Origin: Candidatus Falkowbacteria bacterium
Lineage (GTDB): Bacteria > Patescibacteriota > Patescibacteriia > Patescibacteriales > Patescibacteriaceae
DNA: 64,000 bases
Direction of reading: 5' to 3'
Assembly (NCBI GenBank): GCA_026396835.1
Contig: JAPLWA010000004.1
Span: forward strand, 496,001 to 560,000
Part shown: positions 14,977 through 23,925 of the stretch, in pieces
How positions within the stretch are numbered: the first letter of the stretch is position 1
How the letters are laid out: every line of letters starts with the position of its first letter
Program-made: the position numbers and the translations under genes
The notes under the pieces: generated by a model
Database searches by the model: none
Told to the model about the DNA's origin: nothing
What the model saw: only the letters and a program-made list of their open reading frames with translations

Positions 14977-15441
14977 TTATTGATTTTTAAGATTAGTACG
15001 CTCTCCTATTTCCCTGAGATAATCAAGAACTTTCTCTTGTTGTCTCCCTATTGCATCACTTAACTTTAAATATTCACTAAGTATCATTAAAAAAAATTCC
15101 TGACCCTCGTCTCCAAAAACAATATCACTTTCTTTTATATTTAATGGTTTGGTTACAATAAAATATGCTTCTTTGGTTGGATCTATGAAACTCATATACT
15201 GCTTGCCATATTCAATATCATTTTGATCAACTACCAATCCAAACTCCTCCTTCACTTCTCTACTGAAAGTATCAAAAGGAGATTCATTATTTTCCTTACC
15301 GCCTCCGGGCAAATCAATACATAATGGGAAATTACTCGTCTTATTGTCTCTTCTGTATACAAGTATTTTTTTACCAATAAAAACAAGTCCTTTAACACCA
15401 TGGAAATTTATATTAATATCAAAAATTCTTTGATCAATCAT
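14977..15441 (-). CDS. NUDIX hydrolase
   Basis: A 154-residue hydrolase of nucleoside-diphosphate-linked substrates. The NUDIX box is clear: GGGKENNESPFDTFSREVKE followed by EFGL, containing the metal-binding REVKEE. N-terminal strands VKGLVFIGKKILVYRRDNKT form the usual sheet. The substrate could be an oxidised nucleotide, a sugar nucleotide or a capped end; sequence does not tell. It starts at MIDQRIF, 22 bases after repeat A copy 2. It is preceded by a stretch of more than 200 nt without genes, so it is probably transcribed separately from the MBL gene. Confidence 0.9.
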   Translation of the reverse strand: MIDQRIFDININFHGVKGLVFIGKKILVYRRDNKTSNFPLCIDLPGGGKENNESPFDTFSREVKEEFGLVVDQNDIEYGKQYMSFIDPTKEAYFIVTKPLNIKESDIVFGDEGQEFFLMILSEYLKLSDAIGRQQEKVLDYLREIGERTNLKNQ

Positions 15442-16320: not shown

Positions 16321-18135
16321 TTAATTCTTTGTTGATTTATACAGAGCGTTAATAAAATTAGTTCGAGAATAGGCTTCATCGAATCGAACCAAGTTATGAT
16401 CTGCCCTTCCAGTTAAAATATATTTAGTAAGCTTATCTAACAGCATCTTATGACCATATAAGAATCCTGCTTCTTCGTTATACCGTAGCTCTACCTTAGA
16501 TGATCCCATTATTTCAGTCGTTAGTGACTCATTGAAAGCCATACCACCTATAACAGCTCTCCCTTTCTCAAAGATAAATAAGATATTACACCCCATATTG
16601 CTTGGGACTGAAGCCATTGTTACTTCAAGATTAAATAAAGTATTTTCAGATTTAAAATGCGCAAGAACTGTGTCTTCAGTGTCTAATGCTTTATGATAAA
16701 TTTTATCTTTATAAGAATTAATAATTTTGAAGCTTCTATCAACACTAAAATATTTCATAATAATATCAATCAAATGTATGCCTTGGTTAAATAAAATTCC
16801 GCCCTCATATTTCTTTTTACCCTGCCAAGAACCCAAATAATAGTCTTTATCCCTAAACCATCTCATACTTGCGGCCACATATAATAATTTTCCTACTTTA
16901 TTTTTTTTAATCCATTCTTCTAAATCCAATAACGGTTTATTAAAACGATTTTGATATACAATAAAGAGTTTGGACTGATAATTCTTATGCTTTTTTATCT
17001 TCTCCATCCCGTCTACAGACATAACTCCAGGCTTCTCGCAAAGACATATTTTATTATTTTTTAGAACATGATCAATCATATCAGCATGAGTATAATGTGG
17101 CGTACAAATAATCATAGCATCAACATCTTCTATTAAGGTGTCTAGATTCTGATATACTGGACAATCATATTTAGCAGTAATCCGCTCTAGTTGTTTTTTA
17201 CTGGTATCAAAAATCCCAGCTAACTCTGCATTTTGATTATTCTTAATTGAAATTAAGTGTTTTCTCACGCCCTTGCCACAACCAACCACGCCATACTTAA
17301 CTCTTTTACTAGATAAAATATTCCTTAACTCTTTAAGAGAGGCTAATGTGTTTTGCTCAGAGTCGCCACCTTTAACATGAGTTTCGAGCGAAAGATATGA
17401 TGGTTTTACATAATGATTCAACCATGAGATGAGATTTTTATAATTAATATCTCCGGCACCAAGAATTTCATATTTTTTATTGACGAGAGAATAATCTTTA
17501 AGATGAACATATAAGATATCCTTCGCAATACCCCGCAAACTATTAAAATCTAGACTTTCTCCCTGAAAATATAAATTACCAGGATCAAGTAAAATCTTAA
17601 CTCTTTCATTTTTAAACTTTTTTTTAAATTTCACTAAATCTTTTATAGTCCGTATATTACATACAGGTTCATTTTCAAGCAAAATAATTTTCTTATACCT
17701 TTCAGCTAAATCAACTAAAGCGTTTATATCTTTAGACAAATCCGAAAAAGAAAAGTTTTTGTACCTTAGATATGAAAATATTCTAATATTTGGTGCCTTA
17801 AAAATTTCCGCTATTTTAAAAACCTTTTCAAATTCTTCGCTTTTATTTTTAAAATCAAAGGAATCAACTTTTAATTTTCCTTTATTTTTTTCCACTATAT
17901 CTTCCGGATACCACTTAAGAATCGGAGAGGCTATACACGAAACTTTAACATTATTTTTAGAAAGATATGCCGCGTATTTTTTTAAATCAGATAACTTAAT
18001 ATTAAAAATATTTTCTCCATTAATCGACCTGAGTTCAATAAATTTGATTGAATTTTTTTTCAAAAAACGAACGGCCTCCTTCAAATCTCGATTAATCTCA
18101 TCATTAATGATTGAAATGTTGTTCATATTAAGCAA
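16321..18135 (-). CDS. Fusion: TIM-barrel sugar isomerase-like plus Gfo/Idh/MocA oxidoreductase
   Basis: 604 residues in two enzymes. Residues 1-275 resemble the xylose-isomerase-like/AP-endonuclease-2 TIM barrel: IILLENEP near 151-157, ILLDPGN near 181-187, YVHLKDY near 209-215 and SLETHVKGG near 249-257 give the Glu-Asp-His-Glu metal set. Residues 279-604 are a Gfo/Idh/MocA NAD(P)-dependent oxidoreductase with KYGVVGCGKGVRKHL (Rossmann Gly motif), IICTPHYTHADM and the catalytic Lys in CLCEKPGVMS. Such pairs act on inositols, keto-sugars or dehydroshikimate. A single chain suggests two consecutive steps. It overlaps aroE by 8 nt. Confidence 0.8.
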   Translation of the reverse strand: MLNMNNISIINDEINRDLKEAVRFLKKNSIKFIELRSINGENIFNIKLSDLKKYAAYLSKNNVKVSCIASPILKWYPEDIVEKNKGKLKVDSFDFKNKSEEFEKVFKIAEIFKAPNIRIFSYLRYKNFSFSDLSKDINALVDLAERYKKIILLENEPVCNIRTIKDLVKFKKKFKNERVKILLDPGNLYFQGESLDFNSLRGIAKDILYVHLKDYSLVNKKYEILGAGDINYKNLISWLNHYVKPSYLSLETHVKGGDSEQNTLASLKELRNILSSKRVKYGVVGCGKGVRKHLISIKNNQNAELAGIFDTSKKQLERITAKYDCPVYQNLDTLIEDVDAMIICTPHYTHADMIDHVLKNNKICLCEKPGVMSVDGMEKIKKHKNYQSKLFIVYQNRFNKPLLDLEEWIKKNKVGKLLYVAASMRWFRDKDYYLGSWQGKKKYEGGILFNQGIHLIDIIMKYFSVDRSFKIINSYKDKIYHKALDTEDTVLAHFKSENTLFNLEVTMASVPSNMGCNILFIFEKGRAVIGGMAFNESLTTEIMGSSKVELRYNEEAGFLYGHKMLLDKLTKYILTGRADHNLVRFDEAYSRTNFINALYKSTKN

Positions 18136-18979
18136 TCTTATTAATAAGCTCTCTATTGATTCTTTCTACATTAACATTCTTAAGTGAAACACCTGTCCAT
18201 AATTTAAAAGCTTCAATCCCTTGAAAAATCATCATATACATTCCCGAACAAACCTTTCCACCTCTTTTCTCTGCATTAATTAAGAAATTGGTTTTATAAG
18301 GATTAAAAATTGCATCAAAAAAATATTTACCCCTAGCTGAATTCTTAACAAATATATCCTTGCTAACTATTTCCTGCTTATTGTTTGGGTGCATCCCTAC
18401 TGGCGTTGCGTTAACAATAATATTACTATCCTTAAAATATACGCTAATATTTTTGACACTTAAGTTCTCAACTTGAATCTTTCCCCCACTAACATCTAAT
18501 GATAGCTTCTTAGCTTCTCCAATGTTTTTATTAAGAATAACAATGTTTCTAGTTTTTGAGTATAAAGCATAAACAATAGCTCGAGCTGCACCCCCTGCTC
18601 CCAAGATAAGAACCTTATCATTCTTATTCAATTTTTTTAGTTTTGTCTCAATCGCACGTAACGCTCCTATGGCATCGGTATTATAACCTACAATTGTATG
18701 ATTTCTAAAAACCACGGTATTTACTGCACCTATTTTTGCAGCGCTAGGACTTATGACATCTAAACATCTAATAATATCTAATTTATAAGGCAATGTAACA
18801 TTGACACCGCAAAAACCCAAAAACCGTAATTGATAAAGTGTATTTTTTAAATCACGTTTTGATTTTACTCTAATTTTAAGGTGACTATACTCTATGCGAG
18901 CATAATCAGCCAAAAGATAAAACAGAGTAGGAGAAACACTATGTTCAACTGGATCTCCGATAAGTGCTGAATATTGCAT
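18128..18979 (-). CDS. aroE: Shikimate dehydrogenase family protein
   Basis: 283 residues, normal for AroE. The substrate site shows HSVSPTLFY (Ser-x-Ser), NVTLPYK with catalytic Lys66, AVNTVV, and GYNTDA with Asp102. The NADP-binding motif is ILGAGGAARAIVYAL near 125-139. The C-terminal IFQGIEAFKLWTG with Gln is conserved. AroE converts 3-dehydroshikimate to shikimate; relatives act on quinate or aminoquinate. No other shikimate-pathway gene is seen, and its partners are a TIM-barrel/dehydrogenase fusion and a glycosyltransferase. It may therefore serve a special product and not aromatic amino acids. It overlaps the downstream gene and lies 4 nt from the upstream one. Confidence 0.88.
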   Translation of the reverse strand: MQYSALIGDPVEHSVSPTLFYLLADYARIEYSHLKIRVKSKRDLKNTLYQLRFLGFCGVNVTLPYKLDIIRCLDVISPSAAKIGAVNTVVFRNHTIVGYNTDAIGALRAIETKLKKLNKNDKVLILGAGGAARAIVYALYSKTRNIVILNKNIGEAKKLSLDVSGGKIQVENLSVKNISVYFKDSNIIVNATPVGMHPNNKQEIVSKDIFVKNSARGKYFFDAIFNPYKTNFLINAEKRGGKVCSGMYMMIFQGIEAFKLWTGVSLKNVNVERINRELINKIA

Positions 18980-20148: not shown

Positions 20149-20694
20149 TTACTCAAACTGAATTCTGCTTTCCTCAACCTTAGAACTTTCATACAAATCT
20201 TTCCAAACAGGTTCTGATCCTATTTGATCTTTCGAAAATTCTAAAAAATATTCTAATTTCTTTACTAAACTAATCTGTATTTCATTGCCCTCGGCAAACT
20301 TAATGTAATGACTATTAATATACAAGTCAGCACATTTAACAATTAAAGCTTCAAAGCCAAATTTCTTAGTTCGATTAAACATCTCCCGATATCGATCTTC
20401 TTTGTTCTTAATAGAAACATCAAAAGAAACTGAATCAACTAACTCAGCAATTTTATTACCGAAAACAGAATCTATATCATTCTTTGTTACGTCACTATCC
20501 TCTATTAAATCATGCAAAATTGCACCCATAATAATGTCTAAGTTGTAATTATAAGAGAATAAATAGTACGCAACCTGTAAACTATGAAAAATTACCGGCT
20601 TATCATTATGACCGGATTTCTCATAGTTATTAACAAGAAAAACAATTGCTTCATGCAAAGCATGTCCCTCTTTAGGTGTAATATCTTTAAACAT
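20149..20694 (-). CDS. HD-domain hydrolase (RelA/SpoT-like HD)
   Basis: The start is placed at the Met at 20694 (MFKDITPKEGHALHEA), since the open frame upstream to 20742 runs through the terminator of the previous gene. That gives 181 residues. VIFHSLQVAYYL supplies the first His, GAILHDLIEDSDVT the His-Asp pair with the ED motif of SpoT-type hydrolases, and IVKCADLYINSHYI the last Asp. Family members hydrolyse ppGpp or related nucleotides. It may act in this operon as a nucleotide hydrolase or be a stand-alone small alarmone hydrolase. It opens a five-gene leftward run. Confidence 0.75.
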   Translation of the reverse strand: MFKDITPKEGHALHEAIVFLVNNYEKSGHNDKPVIFHSLQVAYYLFSYNYNLDIIMGAILHDLIEDSDVTKNDIDSVFGNKIAELVDSVSFDVSIKNKEDRYREMFNRTKKFGFEALIVKCADLYINSHYIKFAEGNEIQISLVKKLEYFLEFSKDQIGSEPVWKDLYESSKVEESRIQFE

Positions 20695-20724: not shown

Positions 20725-20756
20725 AAAAAAAGGTCGACACATGATATGCGCCGACC
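20725..20756 (-). terminator. Rho-independent terminator after HPr-kinase-like gene
   Basis: On the minus strand GGTCG and CGACC pair, with further pairs toward a short loop, and seven T follow. It separates the cofE-mat-kinase operon from the HD-led operon. Confidence 0.75.
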
Positions 20757-20762
20757 ATTTAA

Positions 20763-21689
20763 CTATTTAACAATATAGTCTGTTATCTGATTTACGGGTC
20801 CAGAAATATAGTTAAGTCCCGATATTATCCTGTTAGCCAGATCTTTCCTAAACGTATGGAAAGAAATCTGATCATAAGAAGGGATAAATCCTAACTCCTC
20901 AAACCGTTCGCCGCCTAATACATTGATACAGCTACCTCTTATATATCTTGAAAAATTTTCAATCAAGAATAATTTAGTTGATAGATTGTTATCTTTCTTA
21001 ACATAAATTGAAGATAGATTGTTATCAACGTGAACCAGAAAAGAACTATAAATTTTCACCGAAGAATTTTCTTTGTTGATTAATAATTCATCGGGGTTAA
21101 TCTTTTTTTTGCATAACCAGGTTTCTTCGGGGTTATCAGGAAAAAACTTTAGTAAATCAGGAAGACCTCTTTTAATAGATTCATAACGCAGATAAAAAAA
21201 CTTTGTACCTGCTTTTGCATATATACCATCTTTCTGTATCCCCAAAATAACTAAATCATTTCCAATAATTTTTGCTTTATACCTAATGCACATATCCAAG
21301 GCAACCGAGGTTTTACCTGCACCAGATTTACCAAGAAGCAATATACCTCTTCCATCCAAAGATACGGCTGCCGAATAGGCTGTTAGCCAACTGTGCACCT
21401 GACGTTGAGCTTCTAAGAATGGGTATGCTGCGTAAAGTAGTGTTTCACCGTTATTCATCAACTTCCAAGGATATTTTATATAACAAACATTCTCAGTGTA
21501 AACAATAGACTTAACAGTAGAATCAGAATACTCTACTCGGAATTGAGACGAAGGAGTTGTCTTAGAAATGCTAAAAGCAATATGATCTCTTAATAAAGAC
21601 GGAGATTCTAAGCAACTCATTAGGTTTGCTTTGTCGCTAAAAAAATCGACCGTCTCACCTGCTGACGATAATGAACATATATAATTCAT
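20763..21689 (-). CDS. HPr-kinase-like P-loop protein
   Basis: 308 residues. The C-terminal half contains ILLLGKSGAGKTSVALDM (Walker A at 120-127) and IIGNDLVIL, an order typical of the HprK/PckA-like P-loop kinases. HprK proper has an N-terminal domain and a capping loop for phosphorylase activity that I do not recognise here. Free-serine and other small-molecule kinases share this fold. The N-terminal 110 residues resemble the helper domain seen in HprK-related proteins of peptide-modification clusters. The start is fixed by a strong ribosome site AGGAGGG overlapping the mat stop codon. The phosphorylated substrate is unknown. Confidence 0.65.
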   Translation of the reverse strand: MNYICSLSSAGETVDFFSDKANLMSCLESPSLLRDHIAFSISKTTPSSQFRVEYSDSTVKSIVYTENVCYIKYPWKLMNNGETLLYAAYPFLEAQRQVHSWLTAYSAAVSLDGRGILLLGKSGAGKTSVALDMCIRYKAKIIGNDLVILGIQKDGIYAKAGTKFFYLRYESIKRGLPDLLKFFPDNPEETWLCKKKINPDELLINKENSSVKIYSSFLVHVDNNLSSIYVKKDNNLSTKLFLIENFSRYIRGSCINVLGGERFEELGFIPSYDQISFHTFRKDLANRIISGLNYISGPVNQITDYIVK

Positions 21690-21696
21690 TTTAATG

Positions 21697-21703
21697 CCCT
21701 CCT
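21697..21703 (-). promoter_or_regulatory. Strong Shine-Dalgarno before HPr-kinase-like gene
   Basis: AGGAGGG lies 7 bases before the ATG at 21689 and overlaps the stop codon of the mat gene. Most other starts I inspected in this window have no such motif. Confidence 0.7.
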
Positions 21704-22880
21704 AACGAACCTGCTTATCTCTCAATAAACCGGCAACGTAATCTATTTCTAAAATATTTTTAGTAACTAATCTTTCTATGTCTTTCTTATCTACGGTAAT
21801 CCCCGTGCTAATTGACAAAAGATATGGAGGAATTAATGTACTACCATTCTTTGTCATTGCTATCACGCTGTTTTTCACACCAAGTTCATCATAAATTGCT
21901 TTTGATAAAATTGTCACCAGATAGTTCATAACTCTACCTGTATGATATTTTGGATTTTTACCTGACGGAGCTTCTGTAGAATGAGGTCTAAACATAGAGA
22001 TAAGACCACTAGATGAATTTCCTCTTCCAACAACACCCTCTTCACCGCACTCAATACAACTTCCGATACCCAACATATATGGTTTATTAGCATTTACTTC
22101 AAGATTAATCCTGTATTTATCACCAACAAGTTCATTGGCAAATAAAGATAGATCTTTTTGAGCCTGAGCCACTATATCATTATATGCATTTTTATCAGGA
22201 GCAAATGTAGAAATAACAGGAACACGAACGCCAATATTAACAGCATTACCATTACGGTAAGCCATGACTTTTATGTCCTGTCCAAAACACTTAAATCGTG
22301 GACTAGGAAAAAACTCTTCCTTGTTCCAGAAATACTCTTCGAGAGAATAAACTAAATCTTCACAGGTAGTAAGTGGATAGCTTGCAACGCAAACCGCATT
22401 ATCATTAGCTGTTAACTTTGAATATTCTGGAAGATCTTCAATCCCACGCGGTTGAAACCAGTATGGGATCTGAGAATTCTGAGTAACATTAGAATTGATA
22501 ACTACATCTGTACTAGCGAGGTTAGGTAATACAGCCTGCAAATAACTTAATATAGTTTTTCTTTGAAGAACATCTACGTTAATCTGATGCCCACCGAATG
22601 AGTCGCTCATGCGCCCATTAATAAATACTTGTACCGGTTTAATTTTTTCAACAAATCCGAACCCTGACTTGAAGAAACCGGCACCGATATAGAACTTGTC
22701 TACATTATGATGCAATACATATCCGAAATTATCTATACAATATTTAGAATATTCCATAGAAATTAGTTCGGCTAAAGCATCTGCTAATGTGTCAGGGTGT
22801 CCCAACCCTTTTCTTTCAACAATTTCTGTGTCCATGTTTTCAGGATCCAGAAAGTTGGTCTTCAAATCCAAGAAGTTCAT
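21702..22880 (-). CDS. Archaeal-type S-adenosylmethionine synthetase
   Basis: About 392 residues, the usual size of archaeal methionine adenosyltransferase. Signatures include EIVERKGLGHPDTLADALAE near the N-terminus, VLHHNVDKFYIGAG, DSFGGHQINVD and the C-terminal NYLVTILSKAIYDELG. It makes S-adenosylmethionine from ATP and methionine, but belongs to the family that is unrelated in close sequence to bacterial MetK. A ribosome site GGAGG at 22886-22890 points to the Met at 22880, not the one at 22892. It lies between cofE and the kinase-like gene, with the start region overlapping the cofE stop. Being archaeal-type in a bacterial context, it suggests horizontal transfer. Confidence 0.85.
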   Translation of the reverse strand: MNFLDLKTNFLDPENMDTEIVERKGLGHPDTLADALAELISMEYSKYCIDNFGYVLHHNVDKFYIGAGFFKSGFGFVEKIKPVQVFINGRMSDSFGGHQINVDVLQRKTILSYLQAVLPNLASTDVVINSNVTQNSQIPYWFQPRGIEDLPEYSKLTANDNAVCVASYPLTTCEDLVYSLEEYFWNKEEFFPSPRFKCFGQDIKVMAYRNGNAVNIGVRVPVISTFAPDKNAYNDIVAQAQKDLSLFANELVGDKYRINLEVNANKPYMLGIGSCIECGEEGVVGRGNSSSGLISMFRPHSTEAPSGKNPKYHTGRVMNYLVTILSKAIYDELGVKNSVIAMTKNGSTLIPPYLLSISTGITVDKKDIERLVTKNILEIDYVAGLLRDKQVR

Positions 22881-22891
22881 GATAGCCTCCA

Positions 22892-23626
22892 TTAAAATAA
22901 AATATTTGTAATTTTTGATTTATTACTTTTAGAATATACTGCACCTCGTATTAGAACCACCGGAACCCCCTCATTAGCTTGCCCCATAAGAATAGATCCA
23001 GCAGCGGCCATTTCATCAATTAAAGCGATTCTACTTTGTGAAAGATTAGAATAAAGATCACTCTGACTTCTTATTTCCAAAGCAGAGATCCCCGCTATAC
23101 CAATAGCCATACCGACTGAACCATCGCGATCCTTTCGACCGCACGAATCATTGATAATAACTGCAACGTTTTTACCACTAAGTCTTTTAAGACTATTTTT
23201 TATTCTTCGTGCACTTAAATCAGGATTTTTAGGCAATAAAACCACTACCTCTCTTGAATGTGGCGCTATATTAGAACGGTCAACACCTGAGCTGGACATA
23301 ATAAATCCGAGTCTGTGCCTTGTAATCACCATCCTGCCTTTAATATAAAGTAATTCCGACGCTTCATTAAGATATACTTGTACAAGTCGTGGATCACGAC
23401 CTGTTTTTTTCGCAATTCTAGAAGCTTTTACTGTTGGCGTTATTGTTTTCAAATCAACTACCGCCCCTTCTGCCTTAGAAATAATCTTTTGGGCAATAAC
23501 AAAGATGTCATTATCCTGTAAAAAAACATTATTTCTCTCACAGTACCCCATAATAAGATTGGCTATCTTACTTCCTCTTTCCACTAACGGCAAGCCTACT
23601 AAAGGCATTAATTTTATTGTTTTCAT
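22892..23626 (-). CDS. CofE-like gamma-glutamyl ligase
   Basis: 244 residues resembling coenzyme F420-0:L-glutamate ligase CofE. It starts IKLMPLVGLPLVERGSKIA. It then shows DIFVIAQKIISKAEGAVVDL, TGRDPRLVQVYLNEASELL, NDSCGRKDRDGSVGMAIGIA and a C-terminal AAAGSILMGQANEGVPVVLI, all at positions expected for the family. CofE uses GTP to add glutamate through an amide bond. No other F420 gene (cofC, cofD, cofG, cofH) is seen, so it may link glutamate or another amine to a different carboxylic acid. It is the first gene of the three-gene operon with a promoter at 23679-23707. Confidence 0.8.
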   Translation of the reverse strand: MKTIKLMPLVGLPLVERGSKIANLIMGYCERNNVFLQDNDIFVIAQKIISKAEGAVVDLKTITPTVKASRIAKKTGRDPRLVQVYLNEASELLYIKGRMVITRHRLGFIMSSSGVDRSNIAPHSREVVVLLPKNPDLSARRIKNSLKRLSGKNVAVIINDSCGRKDRDGSVGMAIGIAGISALEIRSQSDLYSNLSQSRIALIDEMAAAGSILMGQANEGVPVVLIRGAVYSKSNKSKITNILF

Positions 23627-23678: not shown

Positions 23679-23707
23679 AATCTAATACAATATTAACAAT
23701 TTGTCAA
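23679..23707 (-). promoter_or_regulatory. Promoter of cofE-mat-kinase operon
   Basis: On the minus strand TTGACA (23702-23707), 17 bases, then TAGATT (23679-23684), 53 bases before the ATG at 23626. The rest of the gap to the tRNA is AT-rich and shows no gene. Confidence 0.55.
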
Positions 23708-23844: not shown

Positions 23845-23854
23845 CTCAAGGATG

Positions 23855-23925
23855 CTGCGGGACCTGGATTCGAACCAAGATACTCGCCTCCAGAGGGCGA
23901 TGTCCTACCATTAGACGATCCCGCA
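23855..23925 (-). tRNA. tRNA-Gln (anticodon CUG)
   Basis: The acceptor stem pairs TGCGGGA with TCCCGCA, followed by discriminator G and no encoded CCA. The anticodon stem TCGCC/GGCGA encloses loop CTCTGGA, so the anticodon is CTG. The T arm reads CTTGG-TTCGAAT-CCAGG. The U1-A72 pair and the G discriminator are typical of tRNA-Gln. Confidence 0.92.

Follow-up and report, generated by a model that had tools for sequence, protein, structure and literature searches.

The window, by which is meant the whole 64,000-nucleotide stretch that was analysed, carries on its minus strand an operon of three genes, cofE, MAT and a kinase-like gene. Following it 3' on the same strand is a second unit encoding an HD_4 protein, a GT2 glycosyltransferase, an AroE homolog and a TIM-Gfo/Idh fusion, and then a metallo-beta-lactamase-fold hydrolase and a NUDIX protein. 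The features, in order along the minus strand, are:

23854-23925, minus: tRNA-Gln(ctg); the stretch downstream differs among relatives
23679-23707, minus: promoter-like site TTGACA-17-TAGATT upstream of cofE, 10/12 matches
22892-23626, minus: cofE-like amide ligase (PF01996, 2.7e-62), 244 aa, the operon's first gene
21702-22880, minus: archaeal-type methionine adenosyltransferase (MAT; PF01941), 392 aa, ATG at 22880 with Shine-Dalgarno GGAGG
20763-21689, minus: P-loop kinase-like protein with a possible HprK/PEPCK fold, 308 aa (PF07475 22.4 bits, cut-off 33.3)
20732-20756, minus: intrinsic terminator-like hairpin at the end of the cofE-MAT-kinase operon, 11-bp stem, 7 T
20149-20694, minus: HD_4 protein, SpoT/MESH1 hydrolase-like, with homologs in L022 and L033
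18984-20126, minus: GT2 glycosyltransferase, glucosyl-3-phosphoglycerate synthase/mannosylglycerate synthase-like, with homologs in other module loci
18128-18979, minus: shikimate-dehydrogenase family protein (AroE; TIGR00507 223 bits, cut-off 200)
16321-18135, minus: fusion of an AP_endonuc_2 TIM barrel and a Gfo/Idh/MocA oxidoreductase, the same fusion being found in L034 and L035
15651-16379, minus: metallo-beta-lactamase-fold hydrolase, of uncertain module membership; not seen in other module loci
14977-15441, minus: NUDIX protein, of uncertain membership; NUDIX also lies near MAT in L115 and L116

Gene calls and predicted proteins

The MAT reading frame ends at 21702 on the minus strand and, in its longest form, starts at 22892 (396 aa); since GGAGG precedes the ATG at 22880, the start given in the first-pass annotation is the better one. 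The 396-aa form served as query in the searches and in the active-site alignment, and residue numbers below are those of the 392-aa form. The assignment to the archaeal MAT family rather than to MetK, which that annotation had based on two motifs, holds: both motifs (including NVDKFYIGAG) are present, PF01941 matches over profile positions 13-358 of 395 with 235 bits (cut-off 27; E = 1.7e-69), and all six PDB matches are named S-adenosylmethionine synthase, the best being 7p82 at E = 3e-48. So does the tight placement described between cofE, 11 nt upstream, and the HprK-like gene, 12 nt downstream. The terminator-like hairpin lies directly 3' of the kinase gene, while promoter-like sites number 45 across the region and 47 in shuffles, i.e. 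show no excess. For the HD_4 protein, comparison with L033 indicates the ATG at 20694 as the likely start, the longest reading frame running from 20742.

The CofE-like ligase scores 222 bits with TIGR01916 (cut-off 181) and shares with the CofE/FbiB F420-0:gamma-glutamyl ligases a full-length PF01996 domain above the curated cut-off. The kinase-like protein has the P-loop of HPr kinase/phosphorylase and PEP carboxykinase and, according to Foldseek, possibly an HprK/PEPCK-like fold, the top matches of its model (pLDDT 77) being PEPCK and HprK with E about 1e-6 and TM about 0.4. It differs from HPr kinase in lying below the PF07475 cut-off and in that TM-score; the likeness is one of predicted structure, and HPr need not be its substrate. 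The nearest matches for the HD protein are (p)ppGpp hydrolase/synthetase chains, the nearest family for GT2 is glucosyl-3-phosphoglycerate synthase, and the nearest structure for AroE is shikimate dehydrogenase 1nvt. In the fusion protein, the Gfo/Idh half is nearest to 3q2k, with DgpA among the matches, and the TIM half matches MJ1311 weakly. Both domains are thus those of the pairs of Gfo/Idh and xylose-isomerase-like TIM proteins (DgpA-type glycoside dehydrogenases; 3q2k), though in the window they are fused into one protein; such DgpA-type pairs carry out 3-oxidation and elimination. A scan of nine cluster proteins of the window annotated no methyltransferase or other SAM user. A defence system was considered and rejected, PADLOC giving no convincing match in 7 proteins and, for the HD protein, one weak match to pAgo (16.7 bits).

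The module in other genomes

The conserved module is larger than two genes. It consists of MAT, the CofE-like ligase, the HprK-like kinase and GT2; AroE, TIM/Gfo-Idh and an HD protein of SpoT type are variable members, absent from several module loci. MAT and CofE, the two genes named in the first-pass annotation, do belong, but the set is bigger and its most constant partner is the HprK-like kinase. In same-phylum genomes from other families, CofE, HprK, HD, GT and AroE genes surround MAT in G307 (locus L022), and in G082 (L023) and G095 (L024) it is accompanied by CofE, HprK and GT; in G077 (L025) and G029 (L026) only HprK lies near it, with a HAD-like gene in between in L025. Among the best 80 of 585 relatives are L033 (CofE, HprK, HD and GT up to the contig end), L034 of Shapirobacteria (HprK, GT, CofE, AroE, the TIM-Gfo fusion and a partial HD match), L035 of the cyanobacterium Moorena (AroE, the TIM-Gfo fusion, HprK and CofE), L036 of an actinomycetote (CofE, on a short contig), and L042 of Sphaerimonospora and L049 of Nocardia wallacei (separate TIM and Gfo, HprK, GT and CofE). 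MetK adjoins L034, as judged from the sequence and a match at G437:C17. A plasmid of Streptomyces NBC_00708 carries TIM, Gfo, MAT, HprK, GT and CofE, and one of Halorussus salilacus carries TIM, Gfo, AroE, MAT, GT and a weak HprK (53 bits) with no CofE. The window kinase sequence found no plasmid match; the HprK-like profile does detect the kinases of L113 and L114, both of them plasmid loci. At L037 and L055, which belong to the module clade described below, no module partner was found in these searches, and the MAT of L055 is split into two ORFs.

Within the 95-row MAT set, an HprK-like gene lies near MAT at 13 of 16 module-clade loci against 0 of 79 others, and CofE at 11 of 16 against 1 of 79; flank lengths differ among loci, so that these presences are lower bounds. 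Across 379 Patescibacteria genomes (the sample taken of the host phylum, which genome size and kin indicate to be Patescibacteria) the HprK-like profile is strong in six, all of them among the 11 carriers of PF01941 and with the kinase close to MAT (hypergeometric 1e-10; the same six genomes helped build the profile). It matches in 6 of 346 Actinomycetota genomes, only one of them a known module carrier (G439, the centre of the sample) and the other five weak, at 36-45 bits. In the sister cluster L024, a SAM decarboxylase, SpeD (TIGR03330, 77.4 against 75.65 bits), and a C-methyltransferase lie between GT and MAT, and in L113 a methyltransferase adjoins GT. No description of such a module was found in the open-access literature searched (including PMC8727953, PMC3853416, PMC1282579 and PMC8498797), which is weak evidence of absence.

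A second conserved PF01941 cluster was also seen, in which MAT stands with a SerRS-like protein, a 379-aa weakly AlaRS-like protein, a histidine phosphatase and APH-type kinases. The SerRS-like family occurs in 17 loci and the 379-aa family in 21; the cluster's loci, which belong to the second bacterial PF01941 group, include L028, L029, L039, L041, L044-L048, L050, L051 and others, and its hosts are Streptomyces, Nocardia, Bacilli, same-phylum genomes and a Nanoarchaeota bin. On plasmids of a Rickettsiales endosymbiont (L115, 9941-16705) and of Streptomyces (L116, 8967-16114) MAT is accompanied by xylose-isomerase-like and oxidoreductase genes and NUDIX, the latter plasmid also carrying a carbamoyltransferase. 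At L027 (4728-5903) a reverse-transcriptase-domain gene lies directly upstream of another same-phylum MAT.

Shared history, donor and arrival

Trees of ten loci were built for MAT, CofE and HprK. The window groups with L022 and L033, and L042 with L049 and L114, in all three, and the pairs L023 with L024 and L034 with L035 are resolved in the MAT and HprK trees and uncontradicted by CofE. Gene-tree distances correlate between MAT and HprK (r = 0.88, 0 of 20000 permutations), CofE and HprK (r = 0.88, 1 of 20000) and MAT and CofE (r = 0.64, 5 of 20000). With the actinomycete triple cut to one, the MAT-CofE correlation is weaker (r = 0.36, 2237 of 40320), while MAT-HprK (0.74, 36 of 40320) and CofE-HprK (0.83, 44 of 40320) hold. 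The AU test does not reject a monophyletic group of patescibacterial copies (p 0.058 for MAT, 0.34 for CofE and 0.073 for HprK), so that the pairing of Shapirobacteria with Moorena is not firm.

In a quick MAT tree of 95 rows, the window MAT falls in a mostly bacterial clade of 16 rows (SH-aLRT 99), here called the module clade. A second, mostly bacterial group, clade II, has 29 rows, one of which is from Nanoarchaeota; a node with support of 90 unites 27 of the 29. Clade III (50 rows, SH-aLRT 100) unites 35 archaea, with the housekeeping archaeal MATs, and 15 bacteria from Brocadia, Chloroflexota, Nitrospirota and two same-phylum genomes; the window MAT does not branch there. The CofE tree of 37 rows divides 11 module and 3 orphan CofEs from 23 of F420 type (archaeal, FbiB, chloroflexal and proteobacterial), the split being supported at 96/98, and in a smaller, earlier tree three actinomycete genomes (Sphaerimonospora, N. 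wallacei and a bog genome) each have a module CofE that is separate from their second, FbiB-type copy. That smaller tree, made without proteobacterial and orphan CofEs, had placed the 11 module CofEs in one clade (99/97). That exact clade is rejected once these are added (AU 2e-8; five reference rows, L130, L133, L137, L139 and L141, were left out of the enlarged tree), because the 3 orphans, from Streptomyces and Lactobacillus plasmids, fall inside it; the wider non-F420 group stands. The orphans, which have no F420 genes listed nearby, are L187 5989-6714, L188 7956-8696 and L190 6953-7681.

The first-pass annotation had proposed joint transfer of MAT and CofE as a module, here taken to mean transfer from an archaeon. 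The two do travel together as a module, which looks to have been acquired in the host genus, but a common archaeal source now seems very improbable. Both families are widespread in archaea, as control searches show, and the haloarchaeal plasmid has the MAT-AroE-TIM/Gfo-GT-HprK set; that plasmid, however, lacks CofE and is a single row among bacterial ones, and both proteins lie outside the housekeeping archaeal clades, MAT in its mostly bacterial 16-row clade and CofE with 13 other non-F420 CofEs, an archaeal donor being rejected on these two trees. Since the trees are unrooted, they would still accommodate a very old archaeal source. Synthesis of F420 or of an F420-like deazaflavin by the operon is scarcely credible, in spite of the score above the TIGR01916 cut-off. 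According to PMC8498797, CofE adds glutamate to F420-0. No CofD was found in the host genome (96% complete; as a control, the CofD model matches in 10 of 14 genomes), nor in G307, G095, G436 and G437; since the model also matches controls such as E. coli, a CofD match elsewhere is no proof of F420. With CofD lacking, F420 synthesis is rejected, and the window CofE is not making F420. It differs from CofE/FbiB also in its grouping with orphan CofEs, the module CofEs standing apart from all 23 F420-type ones, and the three actinomycete genomes hold an FbiB-type CofE besides the module one.

As to how the module came into the host genome, PF01941 was not found above cut-off in any of 60 relatives searched, including 3 members of the genus and another 9 from the family, though three genomes belonging to the order give weak matches below cut-off. 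The surroundings of dnaX were read in four relatives, for 4 of the 16 dnaX loci found; in each, tRNA-Gln(ctg) comes next after dnaX, with non-module genes beyond it. Past the tRNA, two of these contigs extend by more than 10 kb and the others by 1.8 kb and by 0.2 kb, which makes the test of module absence a strong one in two cases. What lies beyond dnaX and tRNA-Gln(ctg) differs among the four relatives, so that this may be a variable spot, and it is there that the module probably arrived. A tRNA-integrated island was considered and rejected, as no repeat of the tRNA's 3' end was found in the window, and phage transport likewise, with no MAT in 50,697 phage records; in viral contigs, the single MAT protein as query found nothing and the MAT alignment found four distant matches of 23-50% identity. 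The GC content of the cofE-MAT-kinase operon (0.357) is that of the window mean (0.355), while that of the second unit (0.300) is below all 295 sampled stretches of the same length, so that each half may have come in on its own.

A predicted second SAM synthetase and its proposed pathway

The host genome also encodes a MetK (PF02773, E = 4e-38 at C6:109915, an uninterrupted 323-aa ORF), so that the archaeal-type MAT is a predicted second SAM synthetase. The first-pass annotation had named two circumstances that would speak against its reading, a MAT that is the sole SAM synthetase for want of MetK and one long resident in Patescibacteria. Neither applies, MetK being present and PF01941 occurring in only 11 of the 379 genomes, in one of which (G066) it is a fragment with a stop. 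The host MetK (L002 1495-2466) has CHPDK for GHPDK and, at 323 aa, is a short form; similar lengths are common among PF02773 matches in the phylum.

Residue roles were transferred by alignment to 6s81. In TkMAT, according to PMC3853416, His33 is catalytic, His62, Asn64 and Asn161 bind the methionine carboxylate, and Asp283 touches the ribose hydroxyls and the methionine amino group; a PfMAT residue list in PMC8727953 served as a second source. In the alignment, the window MAT keeps the catalytic histidine (H28), the carboxylate residues (H57, N59 and N159), Y268 for adenine stacking and D202 for the ribose, but has E280 at the position of Asp283. At this position 13 of the 16 rows of the module clade have Glu, and all 29 rows of clade II and all 50 of clade III have Asp. 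The lid loop of the module clade has an insertion with W-[FY]-x-P, followed mostly by R, in 15 of 16 rows, L055 being the one row with a gap there. An AlphaFold model of MAT has a pLDDT of 86. With the archaeal MATs of PF01941 (TkMAT, PfMAT, MjMAT) the window MAT has in common its family, the GHPD catalytic histidine, the methionine-carboxylate contacts and most nucleotide contacts; it differs from them in its separate clade, the Asp to Glu change at a substrate contact, a longer lid loop, and its placement in a gene cluster with MetK elsewhere in the genome.

We think it reasonably probable that MAT is a second, pathway-dedicated SAM synthetase within a horizontally spread biosynthetic cluster, in which CofE has been reused as an amino-acid ligase. 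The same set of enzyme genes is clustered in unrelated genomes, as expected of a biosynthetic gene cluster. A housekeeping back-up, that is, a spare or replacement SAM synthetase with its neighbours there by chance, appears improbable. MetK was found in 153 of the 379 Patescibacteria genomes and is missing from 226; among the 11 PF01941 carriers 2 (the host and G307) have it and 9 lack a match, so that MAT may be the sole SAM synthetase in some, but the contrast with 151 of 368 other genomes does not reach significance (Fisher p = 0.21), MetK is present in the host, G307 and G437, and the neighbour genes are conserved across phyla. Somewhat unlikely, too, is a neofunctionalised MAT, which would keep the reaction type but use another sulfur amino acid or nucleotide, the resulting SAM analogue forming the backbone of the product. 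The Glu at the Asp283 position, set against Asp throughout the housekeeping archaeal clade, and the longer lid with its inserted W-[FY]-x-P-R element make an altered substrate possible, and MetK is also in the genome; the catalytic His, the His/Asn pair and Asn for the methionine carboxylate, the adenine-stacking Tyr/Phe and the second ribose Asp are nevertheless kept, and D149-L150 of the window MAT, by its sequence, may be the equivalent of the archaeal lid pair Asp-Leu (TkMAT Asp144-Leu145, in contact with adenine and methionine). Clade II has a similar loop insertion and yet keeps Asp, so that the loop alone is no mark of a new substrate.

In the pathway that we propose for a dedicated SAM synthetase, MAT would convert methionine and ATP to SAM, to be used in the product or built into it. 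AroE and the TIM/Gfo-Idh protein would build or modify a cyclic polyol or keto-sugar moiety; a shikimate-type ring acid, at a guess, could offer a carboxylate to CofE and a hydroxyl to the glycosyltransferase. The CofE-like ligase would use GTP to join an amino acid to the carboxylate of a non-F420 intermediate, GT2 would glycosylate a small molecule and the HprK-like kinase would phosphorylate one. Most likely the pathway draws its SAM from MAT and ends in a product bearing an amino acid joined by CofE. The SAM-using genes of sister clusters L024 and L113 count for such a supply, while the lack of an annotated SAM user in the window leaves room for SAM or an analogue as substrate. More tentatively, the loci may represent an undescribed family of mobile clusters in Patescibacteria, cyanobacteria, actinomycetes and a haloarchaeal plasmid, in which SAM or a MAT-made analogue is a building block and not only a methyl donor, Gfo/Idh-TIM and AroE rework a ring, and the CofE relative adds an amino acid, GT2 a sugar and the HprK-like kinase a phosphate.

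The genomes of Patescibacteria are reduced and few of their metabolites are known, and it is telling that a small-genome bacterium devotes about 7 kb to a cluster whose SAM synthetase is redundant. The module offers a defined, testable non-F420 role for CofE, and a MAT gene adjoining one for an HprK-like kinase gives a handle for finding more such clusters.
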